Shown here one piece after another: positions 1 through 56,764 of a stretch of 64,000 bases of DNA. This DNA comes from Blastomussa wellsi (Eukaryota > Cnidaria > Anthozoa > Scleractinia > Plerogyridae). The notes beneath the pieces were generated by a model that saw only the letters and a list, made by a program, of their open reading frames with translations, did not search any database and was not told the origin of the DNA. The DNA lies in contig OX393561.1 of the NCBI GenBank assembly GCA_947652115.1, positions 28,104,256-28,168,255 of the forward strand, in the 5' to 3' direction. Position 1 is the stretch's first letter. Each line of letters starts with the position of its first letter. The translations under genes and the position numbers were made by a program.

Positions 1-1312
1 TCATTCTTCACTTTCATCTACATCCGCCGTTCAAATATGAATTATTTCATATATACTTCATGAGTTATTACCGTATTGTGTAAATCACAATCAAGACAGA
101 GAACCCAAGGAAAATATAAACATTCAGACATTTTCATCAATAACAATAAGTTAGGAAAATATTTTGAATGAATACCGGTAATTCTTACCAAACAACCTTG
201 GGAAACAGTTTTGGCTTTGAAATTCTTCTAGTCAGTCGAGTGGCCTTTGCCGTTCTACGAGTGTATATTTGCAAATAATGAGAATGGAACTCAACTCAGC
301 CGTACATGTATTTACCTGCCCACGTTTTCATGACAGAAAACTTTGCAATTTTTAGAATGAAATCATGCAACATTATTGTGCCATGGCATTATCCCTGTGG
401 TGTTAGATCACCTTATTGACAGGTATGTCACAGACTAATGGATAGTGGGCGGATAAGCAGAATCAAGGAAAGTCTGCAGGCTCTCCCTCAGATCACGCTC
501 TATTCGCTTCACACTTCAAAATTTCCCCAAACTTTCCCACTGAAGAGCGAGTTTGCAGGCTAGCAACTTACAGTAAGTTTTGTACAGACAGAGCTTTTTT
601 AGGCCTTCTGTTAACGAGAAGTAACAATAGGTGATATTTCGGGCGATGTAGCAGCTCTTGTAAAGTCTCACATGAATGGCTCGATACCCTGTGTGAAAAC
701 AATAGAATAAGCAACAGGAACAATGCCCCTAGACCCTAAAACAATAGCAACTGCTACCAGTAGAATTGCAAGCTTATGAGAGCTGCTACACTACCGGATA
801 TTCCTACTAGCTGCTCCACTGAATCATTCAACATTTTTACGTACCGGTACCTTTTGCCAGATCATAGCTATGTTGGGTTTTGATGTGCCGCCCCCCCCCC
901 CCCCCCCCCCTTACCCACCCACTAACTACACTACTGATTGTTATTCATGTTTCCCTGCTACCCTGTTTGCTAAAATAATACATACATACTTTACTTGGTA
1001 ATGCAGGTTGATACGAATGGCAGTAAATACTGATGTGAACCTTCTCTAACAATAATAAATAACAAATGAGTAAATGCAAAAGTAAGAAAAATGCTAATAA
1101 TCAATTAATTAAGTGAGAAAGCTGTTTACAGTTATGATACAAATTACCAATAGGCATGATTATTATTGATTGTTCTTTTTGGTGGGCGCTGGTCGCTGGT
1201 GCTTTGTTGTGATTTATGTTGGCATTCACAGCACAAGTAAATCAGATATAATTGAGTATTTAGCTACTCATTTGACTGATGCTGAACTGCTAAATTTCAT
1301 TTCATTTTCTAG

Positions 1313-7300: not shown

Positions 7301-10300
7301 GCCCAAGGTCAGTTTGTACATCTGTTAAAGGGACACTGTCATGCCTGATTTTAGGAATTATTGTGCTGTAATTTCCATATTATTGTGTGAAATGTCACCA
7401 AATACACGAATAAATTTGATAAAAAGATTCCACATAACAAGATAGAACAAGTATTTTGGGGAAGTAGTACAGGATTACAAGGATGAAGTGGATTGCAATT
7501 TACCAAAATTTATTTCTTGTTAGTTGATATTTCTTTGCTTTTACCACTTTTAGCATTTTTTCCCTTCTATTGCAAGACAATAAAGCACGATTACAACAAG
7601 TTACAGGCCACACTTGTTAAAATGTGATATATCAGGCATGACAGTGTCCCTTTAAGAGTAACCTGACAAGCTGCATTGAGTAACAACACTGGTACTTTTT
7701 GTTTTGCTTACCAATTACCTTCAGGTGTGTCTGCAGTAGTGCACCCAAGTTATTTCGCAGATAATATATACTACCGGTAGTTATGCAATGGTTTCTCATG
7801 GCATACCATGAGATATCCCACGAGTGACTTGATTTTTCAGTACACACACTCGCCTTTAATGTTTCCGTATCCAGTTAAGATTCCTCTGTCTGCTTTTCGG
7901 ATAGCCCACAGAATACAGCATAAATAACTCTGAGTTGTCCTGGCATTGTCCTGGCGTTTGTAAATCATAGAGAATTCTTGTGCCAGACTATTTGTTTTGC
8001 AGGAACTTGCAATCCAAAGTTGTTTTATCGGTTCCTGGGTTTTTGGTCATTGTTTGGGTAATTCCTTGACATCTACGCCCAGTTTTCCGTCTCTGGTATC
8101 AATTATTTCCAAAGATTTAAACTGAAGGAATTATTTGTTTCTTCATTCAAATTTGAACATTTTCCCACAAAATTTAAAATGAATGAAAAAAACGTTTAGA
8201 ACAAAGTCAAAATTACAAGGATTTGTATGGAGTCACTGAAACATGACAGGGCCAATATCTGACCCCCAAATTGAAATAAGATGCAAGTAGGCATTCTTCA
8301 TCATGTTCTTTCTGAAGATCTTAACGAATCCCATAATTTCAAAAATTTAAATATTTGTGACGTCACACTTTACCACTCAATAGTCAACTGTATTTCTAAT
8401 ATATCCTTATTAGAATAATACACTAAGACGTATTATCAATTATCTAGATGGACTACACAAATGTCATGATCAATTTAATATGTACTCATTAGTTCCTGTA
8501 TTATTTTGTTTTTTGCTTGATTCTCTGTTTCTCTACCCACAGAAGGGCAAAGTGACTGTGAACCCAATAAGCCAGCGTATATGTTTGTGTGATGGTTGTA
8601 ACAAGCCAGCACGTACAACCAAGGAACGTGGCACTCAGTACTGTAGCAATGAATGTATTGTCAAACACTGCCGGTATGATTATTACCTTTTACAAGTACA
8701 TTAAACACAGTTATGCTGAATTATACACTTCATGGATGAATGCCATGCGTCACACCATACATTCCGTATTTCCAACCACATGTACTTGTTATACTTCACT
8801 TGGTGCAGTTGATGTACTTGCATTGCTTGGTGCACTTGACTTAATCGCTTGCAGTGCAATGCATGATACCATTGCCACTTGAGAAAGTTTTTCATCTTTT
8901 GCTGGCTTCTATTTGACCTGGCCCATCAAAACATGGGATTGCTATCGAGGGCAGAGATTTTAACTGTAGTTGTCAAATCTGCCATTGATACCACAGCTGT
9001 GGGAATGTCACAAGTCTTAACCTGTGAATGTGGTAGTATCACATTTTTTATTGGCCACTGAAAACAGAAGCCAACAGGAGTCAAAAAGTTCTCAAACTTT
9101 ACTGGGTGATAACAGTGGCATGCATCACTTGCTTGGTACATAGAAAGCATTTGTAGAAAGGCTTAAGGTGGCTGAACACAGTTTCTCTGCAGCTGGTTGG
9201 TCTGTGGTATTCCATGGTGAGGCTTTTAAAAATAAAAGCAATCATGGTGTCCAAGTTGGCAGCAAACTTATCTCAAAAAGTCTTGCCAGCTCGTAAACTG
9301 TGGTTTAGAGTTTTTTTTTTTGTATTTCAAAAATGGGTAAATTTATGGCCAATGCATGCTCAGTGTGTTGCACAATTCAGGGTGAGCGCTTCCTTAAACA
9401 AATTGAATTTTTTTGAAATCCAGTCATTAGAAATTGATTATTTTTTACCTGCCTTCAAACAACATTATGACTCAAACACCTGAAGTAAGAATTAAAATAT
9501 GACAGAGGAAATCAGCAATACAATTTAAGTTCAACGAAATGTTTATAAATAAATAAAAAGCTTTCTGTCAGAATCACATGAAGTTCCTGCCATAGAGACA
9601 TCATGGCCATGGCTCCATTAACATATGGACATTTTTTTAGGTTGCATTTGATCTCTACCATTGGCATGGAAATGGCCCATTTTACAAAAACAAATTCAAC
9701 AGTATTGTATAATATACATGCCAAATATGGGCTCATCAGTTGCAAGCATTTAATTGTGGCCTCATGATGAAGTGCAGGTACCCAAATCTTCCAAAACTGT
9801 GTTCAGCCACCTTAAATTATGTAACTGGTAACAAGGGTCCACAATAGGGTTCTCAAACATTTGTTATCTTTGCCCTCATATCAGGACCTTTATCAGTACA
9901 GAATACTGTAATGCTGTTTGTTCTTCTTATGCTTGTGCTTATGTCATTATGCCTATGCTTATGCACTTATGAAAACCAGCCTTAAAGTGCCTATGAAGTA
10001 CACATTTTTTTTGCACATTTTTGTAGTATAATTGTACCCTTATTCCAAAATGACAAAAGAAATTTGGTGGAAAGCAAAGAAAATCCATTTTTTTGCTGCT
10101 TGAAGTTCGTAAATAGGGGGTTCCGGAGACTGGAAACGAATTAAGTCTTGATGATGTAGTTACTGGTTCCAGCGTGTTGTTTACACATAGTTTCCTGTTG
10201 CTTTTGAGTGAACTTCTTCCAGTCAGAGGACTATAGCTTGTATTTTCATGGACCAAATTTCAACTATGTCTGTCAGTAACGATTCTTCGCTGGAAATTTA

Positions 10301-11456
10301 GATAGTTGGACATACCCAACGGCCTTATGTGCGTTATGTGGACGAGCCGATCGCTCGTGACATTTGTTCATTTGCCGTTGATCTGTTTGTTAATTTGGTC
10401 TTCTGACGTATTTTGCTTCACATTAGTTTCTTAAGGGCGCTATAAACTGTAATGAGCACTAGCAGCCCTGGTGCGAGCTTGACCAACATGCACTCGCACC
10501 TGCTTCCTGGCTAGCAATTCTCACAAAATCTGATATCTAGGACATCTAAGAAAATCGAAAGGCTGTAAACAGACTAAAAATTTCAAACTTGAGTCAGTAA
10601 AGCTCAATCTTGAGGGAAAGCTTAACCTCTTGTCACTGTACCAAACGGAGACCAGTTCAGCTGCACTAGCGGGCACAAAGTTCATATAAGGTCTGCCTTG
10701 ATCATACTTTCAGATATCTCCAGATAAATCATGTTGAAAGATCACCAGATCAGATGTAGAAAGGATAAATAAATGCCGACTCACGTGACAGTTTCTTTTA
10801 AGACCTTTTCTGAAGGCCTTTAGAAGTAAAGCATATCTACTACATCTGTCCCGCAGAGATCGGTGCAGTTGATATTGGTGTGGCCATACTGGCCAGACCT
10901 TCCACGACAATCCAGCTTTAAGATCAGAAGACTAGACAGCGAAAGTGACCTCTGTGATTTGATACCCCTTTCTTATGACGGAATAAACACCGGAAAATAG
11001 CAATGGCCAATGTAAAATCAAGGTGACAATGGATAAGTTTGACAGGCTAAACTTCCTTGAGATTACTATTTATTAATTGAAACCTGACACAACTACAAAT
11101 CCCATATCCCGCTAGTTTTTCTTTACGATTGTTGCATCCCGACCGCCCAATATCCTGAAATCCCGCTCTCGCTTGGAAATTAAATGCCTGCTTCCCGCTC
11201 CTGTTTTCCGCTCGCATCCCGAATATCGCTTATCAATTAGCCAAATCCTGCATCCCGCAAAACCTATTGTGGACCCTCTGTAACTGAGATTAAAGTGTGA
11301 CTAGGATGTTAATTGGTAGGCACTGATAGAGGATAAAAACTGAGTGGGTTATAATGTTGTTTGAAAGTATTGTTAATGAGTTTTATTGTTCTGTCTTTTA
11401 GAATGGTTTTCACTGTGTGGGTTGAACAGAGAAATGTGAAATCAGAAGCCACTTGA
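1313..11456 (+). CDS. TOX-family HMG-box protein (3' part of gene)
   Basis: This is a nuclear DNA-binding protein with one HMG box of the TOX type. The visible coding exons are 1313-1379, 5317-5385, 6084-6158, 7047-7307, 8543-8673 and 11402-11456; all join in frame with AG/GT borders. The first three exons encode the HMG box (PLTAYELFFKETQ, IVDQLWESLNENQRK, GLQEKAQQEYQKAQEEQ). The fourth is a low-complexity Ala/Ser/Pro region. The fifth carries a Cys-rich motif (CDGCNKPARTT..YCSNECIVKHCR), and the last exon completes it with MVFTVWVEQRN and a TGA stop. As I recall the family, this tail matches the conserved C-terminus of TOX4/TOX3-like proteins, which supports orthology. The 5' exons, including the start, lie outside the window or were not found: exon 1313 begins on the third base of a codon. 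The exon 3 donor could also be at 6156. Confidence 0.85.
2240..4650 (-). mobile_element. Decayed BEL/Pao LTR-retrotransposon remnant
   Basis: Reverse-strand reading gives, in order, pieces of a BEL/Pao polyprotein. A segment with LGWVFYGP and KFWDLESIGI lies near 4640-4230. A reverse-transcriptase start with YLPHHAVTRED and VVLNASAKD lies near 4200-4000. An RNase H/connector segment lies near 3610-3200. An integrase piece with IIWSENA and IQWKFIV lies near 2820-2620. Frames are broken between the pieces and no LTRs were recognised, so this is a dead internal fragment. It sits antisense in the intron between the two halves of the TOX HMG box. Confidence 0.75.
4945..5016 (-). repeat. Fragment of TTAA-flanked MITE (AGTGCCTATGAAGT family)
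   Basis: The sequence ends in TTTCATAGGCACTTTAA, the terminal repeat seen complete at 43927-44715. Only one end is present here. Confidence 0.6.
7325..7655. repeat. TTAA-flanked MITE, AGGGACACTGTCATGCC ends
   Basis: The terminal inverted repeat AGGGACACTGTCATGCCTGA pairs with its complement at the right end (about 7631-7651). TTAA is present immediately outside both ends (7325-7328 and 7652-7655). There is no coding capacity. It lies just 3' of TOX exon 7047-7307. A TTAA duplication fits Kolobok- or piggyBac-type mobilisation; the ends do not show which. Confidence 0.8.
9163..9815. repeat. TTAA-flanked MITE, GGTGGCTGAACACAG ends
   Basis: The left end GGTGGCTGAACACAGTTT and right end AAACTGTGTTCAGCCACC are inverted copies, each bounded by TTAA (9163-9166 and 9812-9815). 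The short open frames inside show no recognisable domain. Confidence 0.8.
9982..10060 (+). repeat. 5' fragment of AGTGCCTATGAAGT MITE family
   Basis: TTAAAGTGCCTATGAAGTA matches the left end of the complete copy at 43927-44715. No matching right end was found nearby. Confidence 0.55.
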
Positions 11457-11989
11457 TCCAGTGGATAAAGCTGTTTAGAGTTCAGATTAGGGATAAAAAA
11501 ACTTCATAAATTTATTTATTTACAAAGAAACACATTGGGTTGATATGTACATGTAACTGTTTCCATCAATCAATTAATTAAGCATTCAATACTGAACAGT
11601 ATTACATGGCAAGCATAAGACTACTCTGAAGCTTGCTGGAAATGATTAGTATGATTGTGAGAAGGACAAGGAGGAAAATGTTGCTTATAATGAAAATCAC
11701 ATTTTTCCAAACAGGTTGAAGATAACTTTAGTCAAGCTTTTTGTATATTTGAAACTCTGTTATATTATTGTAGCAGTTTAGTTAGTAGTGAGACATGCAA
11801 TATTATGTGATGCTTACCTTGCTTCCTGATAAATAATTTGATATTACTGGACAAATATAAGCACTGGACAAATATACAAGCACAAGCTGTTGAGTGGGAA
11901 ATTGATGGGTTGAAATTTGAGAGGATGTTGTGGCTTTTAGTGGCACAATTTCACAAAGAATTAAAGATGGCCTGCAACAGTCTTGAGGG

Positions 11990-15094: not shown

Positions 15095-15871
15095 CTATGG
15101 AGTAGTGAGGCTCCTGCCATTCTGAGAGTGGTCTATCGACAAAATAAATGGACAAGCAGTCTGAGCCCATTCCTCTGCTGTCTTGTGCATTGCTGCACCT
15201 TGTTTTCCAAAGCACGTCTCTAACATGGGTGTGTTGATAACTCCAGGATTAAGAGGAACACAGGACAAAGGTGCAGGTAGCTCAAGGGCCATAGCTTTTG
15301 AAAGCCCCTCGATTGCCCACTTTGAAGCACAATAAGGAGCCACGTGAGGAGAAACGCTTCTTCCCCAACCGGAACTAAAATTGACAACCACACCCTTTCC
15401 AGCTTTGATCATCTCGGGGACAAAATGACGGATAACATTTGTGGCACCTTTTATGTTGATATCAATAACACTGTTAAACTCCTCGGAAGAAATTTCCCAC
15501 AGAGAAGAGTTATTGTTGATGATAGAAGCATTATTCAGGAGAAAAGTCGGTGCTCCAAAGCAAGAAATAATATCATCTGACCAACGTTTCACCTCCGCCT
15601 CGTTCACAACATCAACAACAGAAAACTGCTTCGGTTTGTTTCCTTGACAAAACTCATCGTTCAACTTGCTTATCTTCTGTGCCGATCGTGCACATCCTAA
15701 CACTATATGGCCCTTGGATATATACCATTTCACCATTGCAAGGCCTAAACCCGTTGAAGCTCCTGTAATTGCAATAACCTCACAGGGAGCCCTCACATCC
15801 GTGTAGAATTTAGAATATGAATAAAAGATTAACCTACCTTTATCGCGTGTCTGTTGTGTTTTGGCGGCCAT
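15095..15871 (-). CDS. Short-chain dehydrogenase/reductase, 5' end replaced by transposon TIR
   Basis: This is a classical-type SDR, expected to be an NAD(P)-dependent cytosolic oxidoreductase; the substrate is unknown. In the present frame the Rossmann motif TGASTGLG is at residues 36-43, NNAS at 113-116, the catalytic Ser at 166/167 and Tyr180-x3-Lys184 in APYCASK, followed by LNPGVINT. The frame is uninterrupted to the stop at 15095. The first 30 residues (codons from 15871 to 15782) come wholly from the terminal repeat of the inserted transposon; genuine SDR sequence starts with EVIAITGAS. The original start (ATGGCGCAAG, encoding MAQ plus the first base of Glu) lies 11.5 kb away at 27326-27317, which would give a 231-residue protein of normal SDR length. 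The gene may therefore be dead, or expressed from the TIR-borne ATG as a 258-residue protein. Confidence 0.85.
   Translation of the reverse strand: MAAKTQQTRDKGRLIFYSYSKFYTDVRAPCEVIAITGASTGLGLAMVKWYISKGHIVLGCARSAQKISKLNDEFCQGNKPKQFSVVDVVNEAEVKRWSDDIISCFGAPTFLLNNASIINNNSSLWEISSEEFNSVIDINIKGATNVIRHFVPEMIKAGKGVVVNFSSGWGRSVSPHVAPYCASKWAIEGLSKAMALELPAPLSCVPLNPGVINTPMLETCFGKQGAAMHKTAEEWAQTACPFILSIDHSQNGRSLTTP
15775..15780. repeat. Left target-site duplication (TAACCT)
   Basis: TAACCT lies immediately outside the left transposon end and is repeated exactly at 27311-27316 outside the right end. In the uninterrupted SDR reading frame only one copy exists, which confirms it as a duplication. Confidence 0.85.
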
Positions 15872-16195
15872 TTTGAATTTTTAATACCCGCGCGGTCTAC
15901 TAGTGCGAGGTCTGGAACCGAAATAAAGGAAATCGCTCGGAGCGGCCGCTCGGAGCGTCCTCGGAACTCTAAGAAAATGACAAGGGATGAAACTAAAAAG
16001 ATTGCGTTCCAAATTTTGCATTAGTTCGAGGGGAAAATCACTTCGTAATTTGCCAAAAATTACTCTGTGGGAAGAAGAAGCATCAAACTAAATATATCTA
16101 CGCTCACTTAGCCGAAACATCTAGAAGGTCTGCGATATTTTGGCGTTGTTTTAAACTACTCGCTTTCGCGCTATGTCTCTGCCAGTTGGGGGCCA
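15781..16195 (+). repeat. Left terminal inverted repeat of the 11.5-kb transposon
   Basis: The outer 91 bases are identical (inverted) to 27220-27310. The next about 40 bases (GAGGTCTGGAACCGA region) are near-identical, then homology becomes patchy. A stretch of roughly 140 bases around 16010-16150 is absent from the right arm. The shared CTCTGCCAGTTGGGGG near 16181 marks the inner edge. Read outward (minus strand) it contains AAAATGGCCGCC, an ATG in good Kozak context, and a splice-donor-like AAAGGTAGGT. Confidence 0.85.
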
Positions 16196-16442
16196 CGGAA
16201 GTGAGAAATGCGAAACTTTGATTGACAGAATCGAAGCGGAAGTGATAGTGCTGCCTTTTCTGATTGGTCAGTTTTAATTCCGGAAGTTTGATGATATTAT
16301 TCCGGAAATAGAATGCCGCCACAAGGTCAAGGCCAGATATTCCCGATTTATGACGCCATAGTGACGGGAATTAAGAGTTCAAGAGTTTTTTGGCAAGAAA
16401 TTTCATGACTGTTCTGTTAAGACATTTCGTCCTCCTGATAAC

Positions 16443-19400
16443 ATGAGGTAAGTATTAACTGTAATAGAAGATTTTGCCAATGTCAGTCAACTCTAAGGTG
16501 ATTTTGTGACAGCGAGGTTCTCATTAATTGGCGACCTTTTCGGTCCTGCGATTCAGATTAGCTTTAAAATTATGTTGCTGTTCGTTTTCCTCTAGCGGTT
16601 TGACTGACTGTCAAAAGAAAGTGCTGGATCTCATTTTGGCTGGCCACAACACTTTTTTTGCTGGCGCAGCCGGTAGTGGCAAGTCATTTCTGGTAAAGCA
16701 AATTTGTGAGAGTTCAAAGAAAACTGTTAGTATAACAAGTACGACTGGACGTGCGGCAAAGGTTTTGAAAACTAAAGCCAAAACAATACATGCATTTGCG
16801 GGGATTGGTGACTGCCACGAACCTAAAGAGGTATGTTTTGTGTTTCATCTTTTATCTGGGTGTCTTTTTTTTGTTTACTTCAGAGAAATATATTTTAAAA
16901 ATAATTATGGGCGCAGGCTACTAGGGTACCCTATCGTAACAACATGGGGATGCACGAAATTCATATATCGCAGAATCTAAACAAATTTTCTATGAAACAT
17001 AATTGGTAAAAAGAGTCCGATAAATTGTCGTGATCTGTACAGTACCGCAAATGATCCCCAGACTGAAAATGATCCCCATATTGGACCTCAAATGACCCCG
17101 AACTGCAAATAATAATAATGTGTCGCAAACATAATTCAGGTCGGGGTCACCGCGTTCGTAGTGCAAGGTCAAATAGACCAATTTCGATATATTAAAATTC
17201 AGCGTAAGACAATAGGCCTCAGCACGAGGCTCTAGGGAATAAACTCCACAAACTCTGTATTTATTCCCCAGAGTCTGGTGCTGAGGTCTTAAATTGACTT
17301 AGGCTGAATTTTATTATATCGAAATTGATCTATTAGTTGACCGGGAGTCCAAATTATTTTATTTTTAATTTTTGTAAATTTAAACAAGCTTGCTAATCAA
17401 AATCATGATATGCCGATTTAGAAGTGCTAAGATTCGGAAGAATTTTATCCCCTATAACAAGACCTTCTACAATGAGTAAATATAAGTTACGGACACTGCA
17501 AAAATCTCCAAGCATGTCAAGCTTTTGTATATTTCATTTTATTTTGGAGGGCGATTTGAAGGATTCGTAGACATTTTAATGCTTATTGTAACTTTTATGA
17601 TTACTCAGGTGATCTTGGAAAAAGTCCTAAGAAGTGAGAGAGTAGTCAAGAGATGGTGCGATACGGAAATTCTCGTAATAGACGAAGTTTCAATGCTAAG
17701 CTTGAGAACCTTTGAGATAATTCATTTTATTGCTCAAGGAGTGAGAAAATCAAAGCAAGCTTTCGGGGGTGTACAAATAGTTGCGTGTGGGGACTTCAAG
17801 CAGTTACCACCTGTCTCCAGTAGTATCGATCCTGGTCGATACTGTTTCGAAAGCCTCATCTGGGAGAAATGCTTTTCCCATCTTCTCTATCTTGACAGAG
17901 TAATGAGGCAAACCGACATTCAGTATCTCAATATGCTGAATGAAATAGCAGAAGGAGAATGTTGCGCTGCAACTGAAGCGTTTATCAAAGAGTTAAGCCG
18001 ACCAATTGACAAAGAGAAGTTAGGTGTAACTGGGCATATTCCTGAAGTTTATTCTCATAATGAGGACGTTGACTTCGTCAACACCCAGTACCTCAACAAG
18101 ATTGAGAATCGAGTTCATGTGTTTGTTTCGCAAGATACTGGAAGTAAATGTCTGCTAGATAAGCAAGTGCAGGCTGCACACACCCTGCCGCTTAAAGTGG
18201 GTGCCCGTGTAATGTTAATTTGTAACATAAACGAATCGTTAACAAACGGCGAAATTGGAGAGATAATTAAGTTTGCGGCTGAGGATGGTCTTCCTATTGT
18301 CAATTTTCCGGAAGTAGGTCTAACGCAAAAGATCGAGAAAGTTGTGTGGAAGTTATATGACAAGGATGACTATACGAAGGTGAAGGCCGAAAGATACCAG
18401 GTGCCGCTGAAGTTGGCCTGGGCATTCACAGTACACAAAGCTCAGGGCATGACCCTCGATGCTGTCAAGGTTAATGTCTCGGGTATTTTCGCTCCGGGAC
18501 ATCTTTATGTGGCCCTATCCAGGGTAAGGTGTCGAGAAGCGATTCAAGTCGTGGGCTTTCGTAAGAGCAAGATAATTGCACTTCCGCAGTGCGTTAAAGA
18601 CTTTTCGACCCGCCTTTTAGCTTTAGACAATGACACACACCTTGAAGTAAACAATCTTGCCTGTTGCCGGGAGGAAACAATAAATTTGACGTATTCCAAC
18701 AACGAGGTAAACCTGTCGGATGGCGTTGATGACCTTTGTGATGACGTTTTTTCAGTGGAGGAAATCCGAGAGTTGGATCAAATTGTGAGTGAATTTTTTG
18801 ATCAAGAGATAGAGGAGCGCGGGACCGAGGAAGAAGTTGACCTTCGTGAGGTACTTGAAAATTTAAGTTTCGAAGAAGACTTAAGTAAGCCACCTGAAAC
18901 TTTCAGCTTCCCTTCGTTTATATCTGCTCTTAAAAACACTAGCTTCCTTGCAAAGCAAAAGCATTCGCTTGTACATCGCAAAAACACTCTATTTGATGCA
19001 ATGCTAACGCCCGATTGCATTGACGCTGGAGAGTGCTTCATCAAAATTCTCTGGAATCGACTACATAACTGCATTAGGAAAGCTTTAGAGCCTCACAGAA
19101 ACGAGACTATAAAGAGAAAGTACTTTAGAGCGCACTTTTCCGACGTGCATCTTTTAATTCTGAGTTCTGAACTGGAGAAAGAATTTCTTACTATTTTTGG
19201 AATTCCTCCAAGCCAAAAACAGAAGGAACATTGGTCATGTTTGGCGGACATCGCTTTTGCCATCAATGCTGCGATAATTCACGAAGCCTCCAAGGCAACA
19301 TCAGATCACATTCCCACCCAGGTGCCAGTTTTTGTCGATGTTAATAGTTTGCCCGTCGAAATGCAAGGGAAAATTAGATACTGTGGAGGTTGGGCGCTGG

Positions 19401-20233
19401 CGAAAACGCGTGATAACTTTCGAAGATACATCAAAGAAAATTTGTTTTCCACTAAAGAATCCTTGCAAGGAAGAGTGAAGGAGTGCTATGTGAAGAAGAA
19501 AGCAGTTGATAGTCTTACATCTCCATCATCATCGATACACAGTTCTTCTGAGTTTCCAGAAACTTTATCAATTACCGACCGGAGGCAATACAGCACAGGA
19601 GGACTTACACACATTACTGATTCTGCCCACAAGTTTTTCTTGGCTTTGGAGGAAAAAAGAATTCAACACATGAACAGCGAGCGACTCAAACTTTGTAAGT
19701 CAAACTTGGTATCATCCACGATGGATATCGCGCAAGCTGACAGCAGACTGCTCGAAACATGGAACAGTTGCCTTAGTGTATCGTGCGATGAAGACACAAC
19801 ACAAGCGTTGACTCCAGACCTCAGAAAGGATGTTTTTGATGACGTAGTGGAAAGATATTTTAAGATGGGTGCAGGCCAGTTCCTGCGTGATTTCAGACGC
19901 GACAATCAATTACAACGCACGGAGGCACATAGAAAACGAGTGGCAGAAAAAGCAAAGAAAGATGATGCTAAGAAGTCCAAAATCACAATCCAAGAAGTTA
20001 AAGAAGACAAGTCTGAAGGCAAGGTTGTAACCCACAAGCAGCTGCAGGCACTATGCACAAAACACCCTAAAGTATTTGAGAGTCGCCTGTACAGTAAAAA
20101 TGAACTTGCACCCTTCTTCGCGGCGTATGGTATCATTTTCCGCAGCAGTTTTACGAAAGCAAGACTCAACGAGATCCTGATTGCAGAAATCATGAAACAT
20201 GACTTTATTCCGAACATACAAGCACTGAGCTGA
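16443..20233 (+). CDS. PIF1-type DNA helicase carried by the transposon
   Basis: This is a superfamily 1B helicase expected to unwind DNA 5'-3', here presumably serving transposon mobility. Exons are 16443-16447 (ATGAG), 16596-16830 and 17609-20233, totalling 955 codons including stop. Motifs are Walker A GAAGSGKS (25-32), ITSTTGRAAKVL and HAFAGIG, Walker B VIDEVSML (103-110), GDFKQLPPV (141-149), then WAFTVHKAQGMTLDAV and HLYVALSRVR toward residue 370. About 500 residues follow the helicase core; they are acidic then mixed, and I do not recognise them. The last roughly 120 residues are Lys-rich and end in a helical segment near KNELAPFFAAYGI. No HUH/Rep domain is present, which argues against a Helitron. 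I chose the ATG in the 5-base exon because the 16596 exon has no upstream in-frame ATG; only a TTG at 16528 is available without splicing. Confidence 0.85.
17174..17332. repeat. MITE (TAGACCAATTTCGATATATT ends) in helicase intron 2
   Basis: The left end TAGACCAATTTCGATATATT and right end inverse (ATATCGAAATTGATCTA) enclose an inner inverted repeat with GAGGCTCTAGGGAATAAA. A second member of the family lies at 36761-36923. Confidence 0.7.
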
Positions 20234-20329
20234 CTTTCTTATGTACTGGAACATGAGAACATGGAATAACTAGGTAAGACTAGGATAGGAACTACTAAAA
20301 ATTTATTTGTTCTAAAAATTTAACCCTGC

Positions 20330-20465
20330 ATGGGGGCAACCCTGCGATGGACTAGCACACCATCCAGTGGGGAGTATAAATACTCCTATTCGCTTCATGC
20401 CACTGATCAAACCGGGATACGCTCCGGCCTGATGGGCCACTTGGTTCCAATGCAGACTTTACTTT
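20330..20465 (+). repeat. 3' part of a tRNA-derived SINE between helicase and transposase 3' ends
   Basis: GGGATACGCTCCGGCCTGATGGGCCAC matches the tail of the SINE at 46296-46575 (GGGATAAGCTCCGGCCTGATGGGCCAC), with the same CGCTTCATGC spacer. The tRNA-like head is missing. Confidence 0.6.
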
Positions 20466-20560
20466 ACTTACTACTTACTAGCACTGCTCCAAGGTGGTGG
20501 CATAGGAATTTTCGCCAAAAACTGGTTCCAAAAATAATGTGTTGCAAACATAATTCAGTT

Positions 20561-23500
20561 TCAATACTTGATCCTTTTTGGCTTAGAAAATGAAAAGCTT
20601 GAAGTTTTACCAATGTTAGACTTGGAAGTGGAGCATGTCTGCCCCAAAAGAATGCTGTTGATGGTCGGTCCATACTGACAGTAGGTAGGGTTGTTATTTT
20701 GCCCATTGCCTCCCCTAACCTGGCAAAATATGTTTTCTACCAGGTCACTGTTTACAAACATGGACTTAATGATGCAACCAGGGTTCAGCTGAAATGAAAT
20801 GCTGCATATCTGTTCAAAGCCAATGACCATCGACTTCAAATCAAATAACAGCTTGTCAGAGAAAATTAACTTGTTCCTGTCTGATGCATTTAGGTCTACC
20901 CTGCCACTGATTTCTACTTCCCAATCTTCGATCCAGTTCAAAACTCTTCTGTTTTCGAAGAACCTCTCATCTTCGGTGCTCGCATACGGCAGTGGACTTC
21001 TGAAATTTTTCACTAAAATGCTGGTCATTTGCAGGAGTTCCACAGTCGAGTCCAGGTGTGTTGACTCTTTTTTGTGCTTCTTGAGATCATTCTGATATGC
21101 CTATTAGAGAGAACATCAAACCAAAGTATTCTTTCCATTTCTATTGACAGAAGTACATTTCATCAAATTGAAACTTAATAGGGGAGTGCATTCTTCTACT
21201 GATCTTTACTTTTCATGATCACAAATTTGCCATATCAGAAGTAGTTATCTTAAGTTCAATAGGAGTATTTATATTCAAAAAACAAAAAATTAATTATAAT
21301 TGGAATTATTTTCTCTGGTTCTATAAAGCCTGACTTACTAGTGTATGGTAATTGGATACTTGTTGGAGATTGCAAAGCTGTAATATCATTATACCTTTGA
21401 AGAATTTTACCTGATAGTATTAATAATGTGGCCCACAGTTTTATCACTGCAAAATCTCAAATATTAATGCAACCCTTTGCTCAGTCATGTATTGCTAGTC
21501 ATCCCCTCAACCCAAATACAAGAAATAGGTTTAAAAATAAGGAAATGAAAGAACATAATTAAGTGTAATGACTTTCGTTCACTTTGTTAGTAAATTAAAA
21601 ACTAACATTTCAACATTTGGCTGAGGAACACTTGGACAAATATTAAACTACAGTCACGTATTGTGATGATATCTGAGCGAATTGGGACCAGTTACCTGAA
21701 GTAATTCCAACATTTTATCATTCAGCACATTTTCGGCCAAGTGATTTCGCATTCGGGTGGCATAGCCCAATGTGAAGTGATCTTCATTAAGTTTCTCATG
21801 GATTTTAAGGGACGGGTTATGCTGGTCCCATTTGTAGGCTTCTTTGAGATGAGACCAGTACACTGGCTTTCCATGGAGCAACAAATTTCGGGATGTTCCA
21901 TTTTCAGAGCTCTTCTCTATGTTATTTCGTAATTTCTTGAAGTTGTGCTGTTATAGGAGACAAGCAGTCTTCATTAAAAATTTGATATTTAAAATTATAA
22001 TGATTATAACTTTACGCCGGTTTTATACCGGACAAGTTAAATTTAATGCCTTTGAGTTTAATGACAAAACACACCTAGTAACATGCCACAGCATCAATAA
22101 AAAGAAGTTAATTACTTCATACTTAATTGGACATTCAAGTTATTTTGACATTTAAGAAAGAAATTGATTTGAAATATTGATTGCAAAGGAATTAATTTAA
22201 TTAGTAATTCTGAATTTATGAACACAGCTCTATTAAATACTGAGTAATAAGCAAATAAAGAACTTGAATGCTGAGGTTCTGACAAGTTTCGTTATGTCCT
22301 TTTTGAAAACTGTTCAGTGCATATTACAGTATATAATAAATCTTAAACATAATCATTGTAATTGTACACACTTCACAAATTAGAGCACCACTAACTTAAG
22401 AATTATTAATGATTTTACAACATTTTGTTAAACTTACAGAAGAATCTAGAAAAAACACAAGAGGTTGTCCAGTGTGGATATTTGTTGTGGTGTATTTCTC
22501 CTTCACAGCATCCTTTCCTTTGAAGTGCAATTGTATGAATGAACGGTTTGCCTGACCACCATCACAACAGCAATAGATGACACTAAATCCTGCCATTTCC
22601 AGCCATCCTACAATTTCCCAGAATTTGATGTACAGAGTTGACGGGTCAACTTCACGAGTCGGATAATGAGCAATAGGGAAACGAAAACCTGTGTTTCCCA
22701 GGTAAACAAATTGGAGAACATGAGTCGCTGTTTGCACTTTAGCCTCACCTGCAATAGGCACATTATTACCAATTATAGCAGCTAAAGCATCATTACAATG
22801 TTTCCCATTCGTCTAAAAAGTGTAGAAATTTCCAAGGTAAAATTCTGAAACAATTTTCACTTTACATTAATTAGAAGTTCTCTGCTGTGCTTAAATCAAA
22901 TAATTTATATTAGGATGTATACATGTTGAACGATGCATAGCTCTGAAATTATATTCAATGAATAATAAGTCTATAATTGGACTGACCCCAAAAATGACTA
23001 CACATGATTGTATAGTTTTAAAATGGTTGTCTCTTAAAATAATGCCTTTTCACACTTTTCACACTGTGTATTTGAGACCATTTTTGGCTGAAACTACTGA
23101 ATAGCTTGAAATTGCCTCTGGTGTCTTGCTAGATTTTACTGACTTAATGCAAATGAGCAACAATAAAGTTCTGTGAAAAGGGCTCTTAAATTTCTTACCT
23201 GTCTGAATGAAGTTCATGTCGTCATATTCAGATCCAAGTGCAACAAGCCCAACCAACTGCCACTTGCCATTAAAAGATTTCATCTGAAGATCTTCCTAAT
23301 TATAATGACAACAGAATATGAAATGGTTAAAACTTCAAATAACAATAATTTTGTTGTTACTTATTTATAACTTCCCTGAGTTTTGAACGCAATCAGGCAA
23401 TTTCATAATATATGTTTGATGGTTTGGCAAGTGCTGGACACTAATGCTAGTCAGGACTAGTAAAACTTCATGGTGGGCTAGTGAAAATGCGCTCCTACTA

Positions 23501-26500
23501 GCCTCTAGACTAGCAAGTTTCATGAAAAAAATTACTACAACTTTGAAGAACTATATAGTTTTGAAGAACTATATAGGAAGCTAGTTTCTAACAACTTGAT
23601 TAATCTAAACCAAAGGATTTGCAATCAAATCCATATCGTAGTCTGTTTTGTACAATCGCTCTGCAAAACAGACACCATCTTGAAGAGGCCTCGCTTACCG
23701 GTATCTGGGGGAGAGCCAGCAATAGTTCCCCATCGAAAAATTTATACGGCTAAAATGAAGAAGATTTCAAGCACTTAAAACACTTTATGTTTGAGGAAAC
23801 TCCCTCCACAGCTCTCCGTAAGCCCCAGAAAAATCACCGTCTAGTTGTCCTGGGTGTGCCAGCTACTCAGCTCCAAATAAAAATAAATGTTTTGGAAGAT
23901 TGTAGAATTCACTGTGTTTAAATAACATCAGAAACAGTATAACTGTGATTAGAGAGGTTTTCAATTGAGTGTCGTAAAACCAAAACCAAACCAATTACTT
24001 ACCAATTAGACTACTCAGCCAACCTCAAACCATAGTAAAACCAAAACCAAAACCAAAGAAATTTTCTAACTACTTTTGACACTCAATTGAAAACTGCTCT
24101 ACGATAAAACAAAAAATTGCTACGTAATAGCACCTGTATGGCCATTTCATCTAGTATAACACCCCCTGTTTTTCCTGCTGTGCCAATATTTTTCTTCTCT
24201 GCCTCATGAACCATCCACTGGAGAACATCTTCATTGCAACCAGGTTCTTGACTGGTTATATTCTTGTGATACTGTAACAGCCGTCCAGAAGGAAGCTTCA
24301 ACATTCCACTTGTTTGGAGTTCTTCATAGGCTTTGGGGCTTCTGCACCATATTGAGAGACACGCACTGATGACTCTGCAAGAAAGAGTAATAGTTAGGGT
24401 GAGGTTACAGTCAAACCTTGCTTGTTCCAGCTTTGTTAAGGTGGATGGAGGGAAATAATAGATTGATTAAATAAACTTAGAGGAATAGAAAAATATTCTT
24501 ATAAAAGTTCCAAAGAAATAATGTGAAAATGGATGTTTAACTGCTTTCTAGAAGTCAAGGGAATGGATCAGGCAATCAGAAGCAGTTTTCTTTAGTACCT
24601 AGGTTGCCAAACTATCCATTTCTGTCACATGAGTTATGACTCAATCCTCTCTGCACTTATACACTCAATAAAGAATGCAATATTTCTAACAGATTATTTT
24701 ATACTTTTGCAATATGCATGTTCACGGTTTCAGAATTCCTGGCTGCCAGTTTACTTTGAATTTGCAAAATTGACACATTTCCAGAAAAGCCCCATATTTG
24801 GGGAAGTAATATGGGGAAGTGCTCAATTAAGACTTTTTTTATTAATAATTAATACAATTACGAAAATTATTTTGGTAAACGCACTACAAGTGCAATTTGA
24901 AAAAATTCCAGTTACAAATTGTATCACAAGTAGTGTAATTTAATTACTTATTAATTGCTTTAGCATTCATACAATAAAGACTTATATAACCAAGAAAAGT
25001 TTGAATGTATCAGAGTATTAATTTGCACTGCAGACTGTACAAATTGGAAATTATTGACCTGCTCTCAGCCTGCAAACACAGTGAAATGCGAACAAATTTT
25101 CTTAGTGATATAATAAATCTGTTGAGGTAGTTAATTATTTCATTAATTATTTCGAGCAATTTTTAATTGAGTGTCAAAAGTAATCAGACAATTACTTTGT
25201 TTTTGGTTTTCGGTTTACTACGGTTCGAAATTTGTTGTTTATTTGAATAGGAAAGTAATTATTTTGGTTTTGGTTGTATAACACTCAATTGTAAACCACT
25301 CTATTTAACAAATTGAATGTGGTTTAGCATGGTCTGTACTCTTATTGACAATGATAAGCATTATCACAGTCAAGTCACAGTCATCATCACAGTCGGTTCC
25401 AGTCCACAACAAATTTTGACCACTGTGATGACACAAAATTATCGTTGTTGATAACAGTACAGACCATGCTAACCCACCTTCGATTTGTTTTTTACCATAA
25501 TATAAATGTTAAAGAAAATTTTTGTTAAAAATGTCAGCTGAAAAAGACATTGCATGACACAATCGACGCAAGCAGCGTTGTCGGGACCCTTAGCGACAAC
25601 AGCAAATTAGCCAATCAGATTGTGAGATTAGTAGTAATTGCTGTAAAATTATTTATAAATAATTATCACCATACTATATTTCACACTTACTTTGGATGCC
25701 ATCGGTGACCTCTCGGGCCTTTGTTGCAAAGAGCATCAGCTTGCGCTTCCCAAAATATGCGCATTCCCTCGGGTAACTTTTCTTTTTCCACATTTTTAAA
25801 CAAGGAAACAAAGTCGTCATGGTCAGACTCTTCAAATTCTTTCATTTCTAATTCAATTCTACGATACTTCTCTCTCCTTTCCAAGTTGACACGTTTTTTC
25901 TTCTCATCATGGATTTTTTCAATCAGTTCTTCCCTTGACATAAGGGTCTCAGGTTTCCTGCTCTTTTCCTTCTCTACTAGAAAATGACTTTGCTCCTTAG
26001 CAGCTGCCCTTGTTGATCTTTTTAAACAATAGCAGTTTTCACACATTGCACATTTGGACGTTGGAGCATAGACAAGGCTGCATTCTGGAGACCTCACCCG
26101 AAACTCAGCAATCTCCGTGTTGTCTAAGATCCACTTCTCAGTGACTAGTTCTACAGAACTTCTCTGAAGAATTTCGCCATTCGAGCAAGGAAATCCTTTA
26201 CAAATGTCTACTTTAGAAAGTACAGAAAAAAGAATATCCAGAGAACTCTTCTTTGAAAGCTCGGATGCAATGTTGTCGATGTTCTCTTTGGAAACTATCT
26301 TTCCCATAACTTTCAGTTCGAAGGACCAATCTTTAAAAATAACAACTTCTTGCAATACTTTACGGTCATTACATAGTAGAGGAATAACTCTAATGAACTC
26401 TGCTGCATTCGCACTGACACTTGATTTCAACCATTCAGGGTGGCTGTAGTTGAGGGTAAAAAAGGACCAAGATGGAAAACTTCTGTCAGGTGTGGAAGAA

Positions 26501-26982
26501 TCACAGACAACAGGATAATTATTCTTCTGTAGCCCAAGATAGACACGAGTAGGTGGCTTCCCTCTTTCATTTCTTCGTTTGGTTTTCGTGACATTTGGGA
26601 AGACCTTCCTAATTACACGACCAAATGTGCTGGCATCCACTGGCTTGAAATCCGGGCTGTTTTCTTTCCCCTGCCAACCATTCGCCAAATATCTTTCGTA
26701 CAACTCCGCACAGGGCACATAATTAATTTCATTCGCTTCGATGTAGCTTTCAACCAGCCTAGTTTTATAAGTCGAGAAAAAAAATTTTCACTGCCTGACG
26801 CGTACACCATCGATCTTCATTAAAATTCGACTGGCGAACTAAGCCTTAAGCTTGAACTTCTGTACTCACCATTCCGTTATTTTAAGTTTGGTTGTCGACT
26901 CATTGTCGATTTCTTCACATTCCACAGCTGAATTATTTTTCAAAACATTTGACACATTAACAGGACGCCATTGGTCCGCCAT
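20561..26982 (-). CDS. P-element-type transposase with N-terminal RFX-like DNA-binding domain
   Basis: The product is 873 residues from seven minus-strand exons: 26982-26870, 26758-25691, 24374-24134, 23295-23199, 22748-22438, 21947-21696 and 21100-20561. All borders are GT-AG and the total, 2622 bases, is in frame. Residues about 34-118 read like an RFX winged helix (ITEWLVESYIEANE, VDASTFGRVIRKVFPNV). Cysteines (CAMCENCYC) and a charged coiled-coil stretch follow. Then comes the P-transposase catalytic core: RWHP, SPKAYEEL, GVILDEMAIQ (Asp469), ATHVLQF, CCCDGGQANR (Asp569), FFLDSSHNFKKLRNNI, a GTP-binding-type insertion around NLLLHGKPVYWSHL, and LVENIFCQVRGGNGQNNNPT (Glu816). Asp469, Asp569 and Glu816 are the likely DDE triad. 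P transposases typically start with a THAP domain; none is seen here. The start ATGGCGGAC follows GTTGCAAC. Confidence 0.88.
23952..24100. repeat. MITE in transposase intron 3 (CAATTGAGTGTC ends)
   Basis: GAGAGGTTTTCAATTGAGTGTC pairs inverted with GACACTCAATTGAAAACTGCTCT. Between them is a run of AAAACCAAAACCAAA. A related copy lies at 25153-25303. Confidence 0.7.
25153..25303. repeat. Second CAATTGAGTGTC-type MITE, in transposase intron 2
   Basis: GAGCAATTTTTAATTGAGTGTC and ACACTCAATTGTAAACCACTC are inverted ends of the same family as 23952-24100. The interior is rich in GTTTTGGTTTT. Confidence 0.65.
25321..25475. repeat. MITE with TTAGCATGGTCTGTACT ends
   Basis: GGTTTAGCATGGTCTGTACT and AGTACAGACCATGCTAACCC are inverted ends. 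The centre is rich in CACAGTC. It adjoins the previous MITE within transposase intron 2. Confidence 0.7.
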
Positions 26983-27044
26983 GTTGCAACTTTGCAACGA
27001 ACGTCACGAAACCCGCATTTTGACTTCCGGTCTTTTAGTCACAT

Positions 27045-27310
27045 CTTATTTCCGTTCCCCCCAACTGGCAGAGACATGCGACGAAAGCCAGTCATAAGTT
27101 TCATCCCTTGTCACCTTATTATCCTCGGTGAGCGATCGGCTCCTTCCGAGGATTTGCGATATTGTTTATCTCGGTTCCAGACCTCGCACTAGCAGACCGC
27201 GCGTGCATAAAAATCCAAAATGGCCGCCAAAACACAACAGACACGCGATAAAGGTAGGTTAATCTTTTATTCATATTCTAAATTCTACACGGATGTGAGG
27301 GCTCCCTGTG
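27045..27310 (-). repeat. Right terminal inverted repeat of the 11.5-kb transposon
   Basis: This is the inverted partner of 15781-16195. The inner edge is near CCCCCCAACTGGCAGAGACATG, and GTTTCATCCCTTGTCA is shared. The outer 91 bases are identical. Read outward (+), it supplies an ATG at 27220 whose frame runs through the end of the element into the flank. Confidence 0.85.
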
Positions 27311-27316
27311 TAACCT
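27311..27316. repeat. Right target-site duplication (TAACCT)
   Basis: Exact copy of 15775-15780, abutting the terminal CCCTGTG of the transposon. Confidence 0.85.
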
Positions 27317-27326
27317 CTTGCGCCAT
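27311..27326 (-). pseudogene. Displaced start of the SDR gene
   Basis: On the minus strand this reads ATGGCGCAAG followed by the AGGTTA duplication. Continuing directly into 15774 and below on the minus strand gives MAQEVIAITGASTG, a textbook SDR N-terminus. The transposon therefore inserted inside codon 4 of the SDR gene. Confidence 0.8.
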
Positions 27327-27416: not shown

Positions 27417-30400
27417 TTCCGCCGTACTGCCAGTAAGCTGAAGTATAATCGACACGGCCAAAAACTTATTGTCCTTTCTGTTTTTTTGCCTCCCTTCTTA
27501 AAATGCAGGAAGAAATAGAAAAAGCCAAAGCTTTTCTGTTGAAGACCAATGCGACATCAAACAAGAATCTGTAAGTACAATTCCGCGTAAAGCATATATA
27601 TTACTGGTACCAATGGCGCCAATTGTACCAACTGGCTGCAGTCTTGTAGTTGAGGCGGCTTAATTTTCAAAAATACACGTCTGTGCTTGAGCTTAGCTTT
27701 TAAAGGTTAAATCATAGTTATACTTAACTATCTGTTACTCATAGGAAAAATTTATTTATGGGCGTGCAGAGGGAATAAAGAACTTCCAAGTATACGAGGT
27801 TTTAAATCAATTTGTATATACAAAAAATAATAATTTAGACATGTTTAGGAAGAAGTGGGCAATATAAATACTAGAGGTAGTTGAATAACTTAGAACATGT
27901 CAGGCTCATATAGGTGTGATTTTGCTATTTTCGTCAGTGTATATGTATGCGAGTGTATGTGAGTAAGTGTGAATTAGTTGTTATACCGTAGGTCCTTTTA
28001 AGTAAAGTATTGTAATGTAAGTTGTGTAAATAGCTGTGTGCAATGCAATAAAAAAAAAATTAAAAAAAAAATGGTTAATGGATGGTTAACTGCGTCTAAA
28101 GGAAGGCCTAAACCTCTTTAAGTTTAAGCTTTCTTTTCCCTTTACTTGTGATCCAGATATGACCATCTAAGTGAGGTACTGGGCAAAATCTTGGACGAAA
28201 GACCGAATCACTGTATCGGTAAGTTATTTAGAGGGCCATTGGCATGACAATGTGCATGTGTAGCCTAGATTCATGCAGAAAGTGTTGAAAGTCTCTTTGC
28301 CTTGCCTCATTCCTTTGTTTTAGCTTTATCTCGAGTATCACTCCTCAAGAACATCATATTTCTGCGGCAACACTAAAAGCAGGAATGACGGAATGGCAGA
28401 ACAGTGGAAAATGACCCCAAATCTGAAAAGATGGAATCACAGAAGAGTGGAACGGCGGAATGGCAGAAAATGACTCCAAATCCTAGAAGACGAAATGATA
28501 GATCACCCAAAATCGTAAAAGACGGAATGACGGAAAATCACCCGAAATCCTGAAAGACGGACACAGGGAAAATCATCCGAAATCCTAAAAGCCAGAATGG
28601 CGGAAAGTCCCCCAAAATCCTAAAGGAGGGATTAGGAGAGGAGTTAGGGAAAGTGAAAGAAGGCACGGGTTTGTGAAACCCCCCTCCCCATGTAAAATAA
28701 TATCTTTTGTTGTTGTTTAAGGTATTTGTTGCTGGAGGACAGGAGAACTGGGAAGCGCCTTCTTTTACTTGGACCAACACTAATACACCCGAGGAAGAAC
28801 AGCAACACATTCAGCTATTTTGGAACCACACTCACAGGCTTGACAACGGCACAAAAAACATACGATTTGTAGAGTCAGACCGTGAAGACACAGTTGAGAA
28901 GGGAATGAGTCCTTATCTTCCCATAGCAACATGGCTTGCATGTAAAAGGCATGTAGAAGAAGACTGTAAAAGGAAGCTTAGCTCATTAGGAATTTCAGCA
29001 GAGTACTGCACAGCGTTTCTACATGATGTCAACCATGAAAAAGGGCTTATTGACTCAGACAGGTGCAAAGACTTTCATGCTAAGCTTGAAAGTTTGGAAA
29101 ACGTTTGGAATTCAAGAGAAAAGAAATCAAGGGGTGCAGTGCTCTCTAATTCATATTTTGTGGCACATGTTGCAGAAGACATGAAGAAGATGATTTCACC
29201 TGTTAGAAAATGTGCTGGCCTTGGGGAATTATTTTTTTACAACAATGGGGCAGAGTCCAAGCATCAGCAGATTAAGGCAAGGAAGGGACAGGTGTATAGA
29301 GAACGATAACTTGCCGGGACAGAAGTAGTTGACTTGCAGAAATTTATTTCCAAACAGGAGGAAAGGAATTGCAAAAGAGCTATTGTGGATGAGTGTCCTT
29401 ACAAGATAGGCCAGCCATACTGTGCAAAGCTTCAAGTCACATTCTCGGCCTACATCAGCAAGTCTCACACCCAAAAGGAGAAGACCAATGAGAGAGTGCA
29501 CAAACTTACGATGGAAGAAGCCTTACCACAGTCCAACGTTTCAGTTAATCATGCGAAGAAGAATTTTACTGAACGTGCCTAAGTCAGTCAGTGGGAGACC
29601 GGGAGAACCGGAACGAAAAAGAAAACTTCTTCCACAAACCCAACATTCCATTAGTGAGTATACAAGGAGAATTGGAACATCACCGAAACCAGCTCTCGAC
29701 ACAACCACATTTAAAGTCAAATGGATCAAGAACTCTAGGGTCTTCAGATGTTACGGGTGTTAGCAAAACATCCATCCCAAACCCCAGAAAGGCAAAGTGG
29801 AAGTAGTTCCTCCACCACCTTGGGACTTTGTTCTTGCTCGACTAGAACTCGGACCAATTCCTAATTGTGATGGGAAGTTAAGAATGTCCGTCGAGCCGGT
29901 GCATTATCACCCAAAGTTGTTAGGTGACTAAACCTGCGCTAACTTGGTTGATATTGACAGTTCCATCATTCCGGCTTTTAGGATTTTGGGTGATTGCCCG
30001 CGCTTCTGTCTTTTGTGATTTTGGGGAATTTTCTGTCATTCCGTCTTTTAGGATTTGGGATCATTTTCGGCTGTTCTGTGATTCCATCTTTTAGGATTTG
30101 GGTCATTTTCCAATCGTCCCGTGATTCCGCCATTCTGACGTTTCGCCGTTCCGTCATTCCAGGTTTTGGCCTATTTCTGTGATGTTGATATGAAAATACA
30201 AGCAATATGTTCTGTTTATAACTTCCACGAATGACCAAAAACGTTTACGTTAAAGTGCTACTATGATCAAATTTTTATACACCTTACTTTTTGAAGCGAA
30301 TCATGTAGTGCTTGATGTGAGATTGAAAATGCCGTTCTCTGTTTTCAAATATCTGTAGTAGTTCCCGAGATATTCAAGTTTAGAAAAATGGTAAAATATG

Positions 30401-56333: not shown

Positions 56334-56764
56334 ATTTCAATATCAACCACCAACACCTGCAAATCACATGTAATAAAATAAACGAATAAGAAAGAAGACG
56401 ATTTTATCATAACGTTCGATGTTTCTTAATCATGGAGTCTAATTGTTATCATTATCATTATTGTTACGGCGTACTCACGATAAACACAAACGGTAAAGAT
56501 TTTGCAATTGAACATTTCTGATTTTAAAGCAGGGCTGGAGGAGGTGAGTTTCAATATACATTATCTATCGCATGGTCATAAGGGGGTGGGGGCTTTTTAA
56601 CTACAGATCTGGAGCAGTTTGTAAGGGATTGCTCAAGACGCTATTTGGAGGCAAAGGAGGCATACGATATTGTGCGTGTCAAACTGGTGCCAGTCCCAAA
56701 CCACGCATCAGAGGAAAAGAGTTTCTTAAGCATTAGAAATAACATAGCCTTCTTTATAATCGGT

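Follow-up and report, generated by a model that had tools for sequence, protein, structure and literature searches.

A P-related DNA transposon in the coral Blastomussa wellsi carries a PIF1 helicase gene beside its transposase gene

Introduction

Can a DNA transposon carry its own means of refilling the gap that it leaves behind? The question is raised by an element in a 64,000-nucleotide stretch of the genome of the scleractinian coral Blastomussa wellsi (assembly GCA_947652115.1, contig OX393561.1, forward-strand positions 28,104,256 to 28,168,255), which we call the window and number from its first base. At window positions 15781-27310, a gene for a P-type DDE transposase and a gene for a PIF1 helicase lie together between terminal inverted repeats (TIRs). 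Cut-and-paste transposons rely on host gap repair, which decides copy gain; if this element does use a Pif1 of its own for that purpose, one could ask directly, by comparing the element with and without its helicase gene, whether donor sites are refilled. A first-pass annotation of the window had described the locus as a composite transposon of a kind that it did not recognize as described, and had named chance nesting of one element in another as the alternative. Here we show that transposase and helicase form one mobile unit, with several independent two-gene insertions in the host genome, and we weigh what the helicase may do there.

Results

The element is a single insertion of 11.5 kb

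The element spans 11,530 bp (15781-27310) as a single unit. Its inverted arms, 15781-15883 and 27208-27310, are 103 nt long and 99% complementary, with identity unbroken for 95 bases and the first mismatch at base 96. The TIRs proper are thus 15781-15875 on the + strand and 27216-27310 on the - strand, and their likeness runs on to about 15936 on the left (94% over 156 bp) and about 27156 on the right; the identical ends had been recognized in the first-pass annotation, at a length of 91 bp that we correct here to 95. Further inside lie two subterminal inverted repeats, at 15970-15994 (+), with a partner at 27097-27121 (88%), and at 16158-16206 (+), with a partner at 27044-27092 (82%). With up to 3 mismatches allowed, the 20-base element end has two matches in the window, as against none in any of 100 shuffles.

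The element is flanked by an exact 6-bp target site duplication (TSD), TAACCT, at 15775-15780 and 27311-27316, just as first annotated. Joining the flanks without the element yields an uninterrupted frame, MAQEVIAITGASTGLG..., which is the beginning of a short-chain dehydrogenase gene (Pfam adh_short, 136.8 bits), and the insertion point falls in the first codons of this gene: its body lies at 15095-15780 on the - strand and its start codon at 27324-27326, past the element. Since TIRs, TSD and a host frame restored on joining all agree, there is strong evidence that the boundaries are correct and that the entire 11.5 kb was inserted in one step, which bears out the description of a single TIR-bounded unit. 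The element is apparently young. The term "composite", on the other hand, is a misnomer, because no part of the element is flanked by two insertion sequences.

Two genes lie tail to tail between the repeats

Both genes are modelled from sequence and homologues, not from RNA, and the splicing given here is accordingly predicted. The helicase gene (+ strand) has three predicted exons that encode 954 amino acids without an internal stop: exon 1 (16443-16447) holds the start codon, exon 2 (16596-16830) the Walker A motif (GAAGSGKS), and exon 3 (17609-20233) the remaining PIF1 core, the Pif1 2B domain, a conserved, predicted-helical C-terminal region and the stop codon. The transposase gene (- strand) has seven predicted exons with GT-AG introns and encodes 873 amino acids, again without internal stops. 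Exon 1 (26870-26982) contains the start codon, exon 2 (25691-26758) an RFX-type DNA-binding domain and a CxxC cluster, and exon 3 (24134-24374) the first catalytic D (D469, LDEM); exon 4 (23199-23295) is followed by exon 5 (22438-22748) with the second catalytic D (D569, CDGG) and D608 of a DxxH motif, by exon 6 (21696-21947), which starts with H611 of that motif, and by exon 7 (20561-21100) with the catalytic E (E816, VENIF) and the stop codon. The acceptor of exon 5 at 22748 is backed by homologues, and a start farther upstream would include one stop; with the homologue-supported acceptor the frame stays open, which rules out a broken transposase. The genes end tail to tail, their coding ends (stops included) at 20233 and 20561 being separated by 327 bp, so that the two convergent multi-exon genes of the first-pass annotation stand as described. 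An approximately 100-bp repeat between them (20353-20456) is 80% like another at 46459-46560, and small inverted-repeat insertions lie in introns of both genes (23950-25489 and 17172-17334).

The helicase matches the Pfam families PIF1 (PF05970, 111.9 bits) and Pif1 2B (PF21530, 29.5 bits), and has the features of the PIF1 family, namely a core with Walker A, a DEVSM box and the 2B domain. An AlphaFold model of exon 3 (mean predicted local distance difference test score, pLDDT, 72) matches the fold of human, yeast and bacterial Pif1, and among the 50 matches listed from the PDB the best are PIF1 and other superfamily 1 (SF1) helicases. The C-terminal half, of about 500 residues, is predicted to be helical in this model, matches no Pfam family at E < 0.1, and can be aligned with relatives, several of which are fragments, at 28-39% identity. 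Against solved structures, a helicase profile scored 301-332 bits with eukaryotic PIF1 chains and 113.5 bits with the Helitron helicase Helraiser; because the cellular proteins outscore that of the Helitron, the helicase looks to be derived from a cellular PIF1.

The transposase contains a P-type RNase H domain (PF21787, 46.4 bits against a cut-off of 24.6), a second match below its cut-off (PF21789, 21.1 bits against 24) and an RFX_DNA_binding domain (33.7 bits, cut-off 27). No THAP domain was found among Pfam matches at E up to 0.1. Between the two RNase H parts, where P transposases have a GTP-binding insertion, there is no Pfam match, and the fold model of the transposase is of poor quality (pLDDT 47). 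A profile of six sequences finds the P transposase structure 6p5a, with an E of 0.00025 over the full chain and weak scores for each stretch alone; the alignment places LDEM (D469) on D230 and VEN (E816) on E531 and covers the DxxH region, and D569 corresponds to P transposase D303 by spacing. Residues D469, D569, D608xxH611 and E816 are separated by 100, 39 and 208 residues. Neither protein has a Helitron-type domain in Pfam.

Both genes move together in the host genome

We searched the host assembly (368 Mb, 124 contigs) for further copies. A 110-bp TIR query gave at least 42 matches and a 200-bp query from the other end of the element at least 55. A helicase exon query gave at least 59 matches, with 52 of 268 candidates scored. 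Five of these matches, at 99-100% identity, correspond to four loci, one of them split by an insert, and the 54 others reach no more than 37%. Among the candidates scored, near-identical helicase occurs at these four loci within the TIR family and nowhere else, and at each of them the distance from the same TIR to the start of exon 3 is 1,828-1,829 bp, with transposase sequence after the exon. The claim that the P-type transposase and the PIF1 helicase belong to one mobile unit is thereby confirmed.

The four two-gene copies comprise that of the window (15781-27310) and three others. The copy at C1:29119885-29140144 has both genes, both TIRs and an exact 7-bp TSD, and is thus the kind of further copy that the first-pass annotation had called for; it contains one large insert near its right end and a small internal duplication. 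Those starting at C1:25475367 and C9:8003017 retain element positions 1-10352 in three pieces and 1-7652 in two pieces, respectively. Over the parts compared, these copies differ from that of the window by 0.56-0.62% substitutions, and their flanking sequences, compared over 500-bp stretches, are unrelated. Beyond the break of the copy at C1:25475367, the right part of the stretch C1:25494867-25501866 appears by eye to be another mobile element.

A query with the C-terminal exon of the transposase (13 of 13 candidates scored) gave 10 matches at nine loci: the four two-gene copies, four derivatives of 4 kb and a divergent locus on contig C4. With the Oculina relative P0004 as query, the 53 matches comprised other exons of the family at the same eight loci and distant transposase fragments elsewhere. 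The 4-kb derivatives consist of element positions 1-1350, 4715-6310 and 10517-11530, so that the helicase gene is represented by its start and the transposase gene by its two ends. They are 98.9-99.6% alike, have no common flanks and are most simply read as descendants of the two-gene element. Among the deletion derivatives, L104 has an internal piece out of place, and the L089 type contains filler that blastn does not place in the element.

The nesting foreseen by the first-pass annotation, with transposase-only copies and a helicase bounded by its own ends, is not borne out. No complete transposase-only copy of the TIR family was found in the host genome, and when the sequences on either side of the helicase are compared for inverted repeats, the best match (22 bp, 86%, E 0.023) bounds nothing, because one of its arms lies inside helicase exon 2.

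Among 16 copies, the TSD is exactly 6 bp in 11 and exactly 7 bp in three, and two (L104 and L099) have none at their assumed ends; L103, with an altered left end and no exact duplication by eye, is outside this count. The duplicated sequences vary among copies. Because a true 6-bp duplication would by chance look like one of 7 bp in about one case in four, the target stagger is likely 6 bp.

In the helicase, the three other two-gene copies differ from that of the window by 14 silent changes and 16 replacements. Replacements thus fall short of the expected 71% (nominal p 0.028, uncorrected and assuming a transition bias). Two further changes are stops, both in the copy at C1:29119885-29140144, whose helicase also has 10 codons hit by deletions. 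These counts lend weak support to the helicase being kept by selection.

Divergent loci and relatives in other animals

At the C4 locus, a decayed transposase end (+) and a decayed helicase (-) face each other tail to tail across about 2.1 kb. The proteins of the window share 48% identity (transposase) and 32-58% (helicase pieces) with this locus, and the Oculina transposase P0004 shares 65%. Given that both the pairing and the orientation recur there, they seem to be older than the TIR family of the element.

In protein searches, relatives of the transposase were found in Oculina, Ptychodera and Actinostola (five matches), while Paramuricea, Oculina, Mizuhopecten (incomplete), Ptychodera and further sources yielded helicase relatives that extend into the C-terminal half; with the C-terminal half alone as query there were five matches, four of them close. 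Relatives of both proteins are thus present in Oculina and in Ptychodera, and the contigs of the Oculina sequences P0001 and P0016 are equal in size (32,227,393). Viral contigs contain PIF1-like proteins by the helicase profile, and in the 80 loci retained of 180 the C-terminal half was not seen, the match ending by query residue 442; the transposase profile found no relatives among 40 candidate viral stretches.

Neighbouring genes in the window

Just to the right of the element, an open frame of 202 amino acids (28701-29309, + strand) has no Pfam match. Farther on, a single open frame of 1,913 amino acids (50595-56336, - strand) combines a DEAH-type helicase with RRM, KH and an IBR-type ubiquitin-ligase end, and several of its matching Pfam models carry the name DEAH11. 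It is followed at 56743-58532 (+ strand) by two adjacent frames resembling a non-long-terminal-repeat retrotransposon, the first with a reverse transcriptase domain and the second without a Pfam match.

Discussion

Our study showed that a transposase and a helicase travel together in one mobile unit, which leaves the question of what the helicase contributes. We give roughly even chances to an autonomous two-gene DNA transposon whose PIF1 helicase drives long repair synthesis at the excision gap. The enzymatic activities of both proteins, the binding of the repeats and the role of the helicase are inferred. The long inverted repeats, terminal and subterminal, would be bound by the RFX domain of the transposase, whose P-type catalytic site would excise the element and join it to a target with a 6-bp stagger. 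With a sister or homologous copy as template, the element's PIF1 would then drive long repair synthesis across the excision gap, and the 11.5-kb element would thus be copied back at the donor site, with a gain of copies. Pif1 belongs to the minimal machinery of break-induced replication (PMC13237216), the double-strand gap that a P element leaves is not always repaired efficiently (PMC4168063), and the host Bloom helicase helps to repair P-element breaks (PMC7776569); here and below, we draw on excerpts of the papers cited. The derivatives of the L089 type and L104 look like cases of interrupted or failed gap refilling.

Several observations weigh against this reading. Internal deletions with filler are common in cut-and-paste elements without a helicase, and the derivatives therefore give no pointer to the helicase. 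The selection signal is weak, and the transposase has none (5 silent changes against 16 replacements, p 0.75; two of the copies cover no more than 626 and 399 of its 873 codons). The two genes are also met apart: a divergent helicase locus on C10 has no transposase alongside in the 9 kb read, another on C5 has its nearest transposase match 53 kb off, and some divergent transposase fragments, such as a truncated one at C1:18.52 Mb whose C-terminal end was also not found, have no helicase match nearby. In Ptychodera, the annotated relatives lie on contigs that differ in length. Finally, three of the four close helicase relatives (P0006-P0008) start within intron sequence and therefore look like genomic reading frames.

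The main rival, which we regard as rather unlikely, holds that the helicase works in transposition itself, by unwinding the ends or in a copy-out or replication-coupled path, and not in later repair. Helicases do recur beside DDE transposases in the Kolobok and Academ lineages, and the length of the AcademH duplication seems tied to its helicase (PMC10045372); our element likewise departs from the P norm, 11 of the 16 copies having duplications of 6 bp and three having duplications of 7 bp. Short duplications and deletion derivatives are, however, compatible with plain cut-and-paste, the only helicase named in the excerpts of the P-element review is a host one, acting in repair (PMC7776569), and a copy-out intermediate is not visible in a sequence. 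It is also conceivable, although improbable, that the helicase serves some other interest of the element, such as damage repair, anti-silencing or timing to replication, through its C-terminal domain. That half of the protein is kept in distant relatives, matches no known Pfam family and is helical in the model, but there is no sign of a target or partner, and the best folds for exon 3 are those of PIF1 and other SF1 helicases.

The helicase could instead be a passenger, a host PIF1-type gene captured once and carried without function. Its closer resemblance to cellular PIF1 than to the Helitron helicase would fit such an origin, as would the weakness of the evidence for selection within the family. 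The same pairing and tail-to-tail order at the divergent C4 locus, the retention of both PIF1 core and C-terminal half in relatives, some of them fragments, and the finding that Oculina and Ptychodera each have proteins related to the transposase and to the helicase all argue otherwise, and we hold this explanation to be quite improbable. Chance nesting of a helicase-bearing element in a P-type element has general plausibility to recommend it, and small inverted repeats are indeed nested in the introns. It is nonetheless hardly credible here: there are no inner ends around the helicase, the arrangement is common to four independent copies, and among the candidates scored, helicases outside the TIR family are at most 37% identical. 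For this TIR family we consider nesting excluded by the arrangement shared by all four loci and the absence of inner ends.

Returning to the repair model, one may extend it to an old, animal-wide P-related lineage, present in anthozoans, hemichordates and perhaps molluscs, in which THAP was swapped for RFX, the stagger became 6 bp and a dedicated PIF1 gained a new C-terminal module, the whole forming an obligate two-protein system for excision coupled with long replicative repair. This extension is speculative and we consider it doubtful.

How does the element relate to known transposons? P elements have an 8-bp TSD and terminal and internal inverted repeats, and measure 2.9 kb in Drosophila (PMC7776569); Galileo has a TSD of 7 or 8 bp and, from its published positions, motif spacings of 88, 34 and 193 (PMC4168063). 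The element shares with this superfamily the P-type RNase H core, D-D-DxxH-E residues with Galileo-like spacing, terminal and subterminal inverted repeats and internally deleted copies. Unlike Drosophila P, Galileo and the zebrafish P-like element (THAP9), it has a TSD of 6 bp rather than 8 (7-8 in Galileo), an RFX domain in place of THAP, and a second gene, PIF1, in a total of 11.5 kb as against the 2.9 kb of Drosophila P. Because the THAP domain and the 7-8 bp duplication are missing, we file it as a P-related lineage and not as a canonical P element, so that the "P-type" of the first-pass annotation applies to the catalytic core and motif and not to these textbook features.

In Helitrons and Helentrons, a PIF1-like helicase is fused to a Rep/HUH nuclease, and these rolling-circle elements have neither TIR nor TSD. 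The element described here resembles them in bearing a PIF1-family helicase, but its TIRs, its TSD and the absence of a Helitron-type domain rule out a Helitron, and its helicase, encoded by a gene of its own, has higher profile scores with cellular PIF1 than with the Helitron helicase.

Kolobok elements have their own transposase type and a TTAA target duplication, and RecQ is a superfamily 2 helicase whereas PIF1 belongs to SF1B. RecQ helicases are carried by KolobokH and by Kolobok-1_CCri, in the latter on the complementary strand (PMC9587614), and these are, like our element, DDE transposons with an accessory helicase. The varied, mostly 6-bp TSDs and the PIF1 identity of the helicase rule out Kolobok and KolobokH. 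AcademH, an Academ with a helicase and a TSD of 9-10 bp (PMC10045372), is likewise a DDE transposon with a helicase as its second enzyme, and is ruled out by the mostly 6-bp TSD and the P-type rather than Academ transposase. Dada shares a TSD of 6-7 bp, a DxxH motif and an extra DNA-processing enzyme, in its case an exonuclease domain, and targets small RNA genes; Dada-U6 and -U1 lack terminal inverted repeats, and a helicase is nowhere mentioned in the same paper (PMC3706591). The 95-bp TIR and the insertion of the window copy in a dehydrogenase gene, the one insertion site classified, rule it out. RAG-like transposons also have two convergent genes (PMC7204232), but their transposase is unrelated and their second gene is RAG2-like, not a helicase.

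Among the matches listed from the open-access literature, Repbase being outside this scope, we found no P-type element with a helicase, PIF1 or otherwise, or with an RFX domain. The first-pass annotation had not recognized the two-gene system as described; this stands for the pairing of P-type transposase and PIF1, which appears to be new, but not for the kind, since helicases are already known as accessory genes of DDE transposons from KolobokH, Kolobok-1_CCri and AcademH. The element thus adds a third helicase-carrying transposase type to Kolobok and Academ, and as these helicases were apparently acquired separately, their recurrence suggests that a helicase may answer a general need of large DDE transposons.

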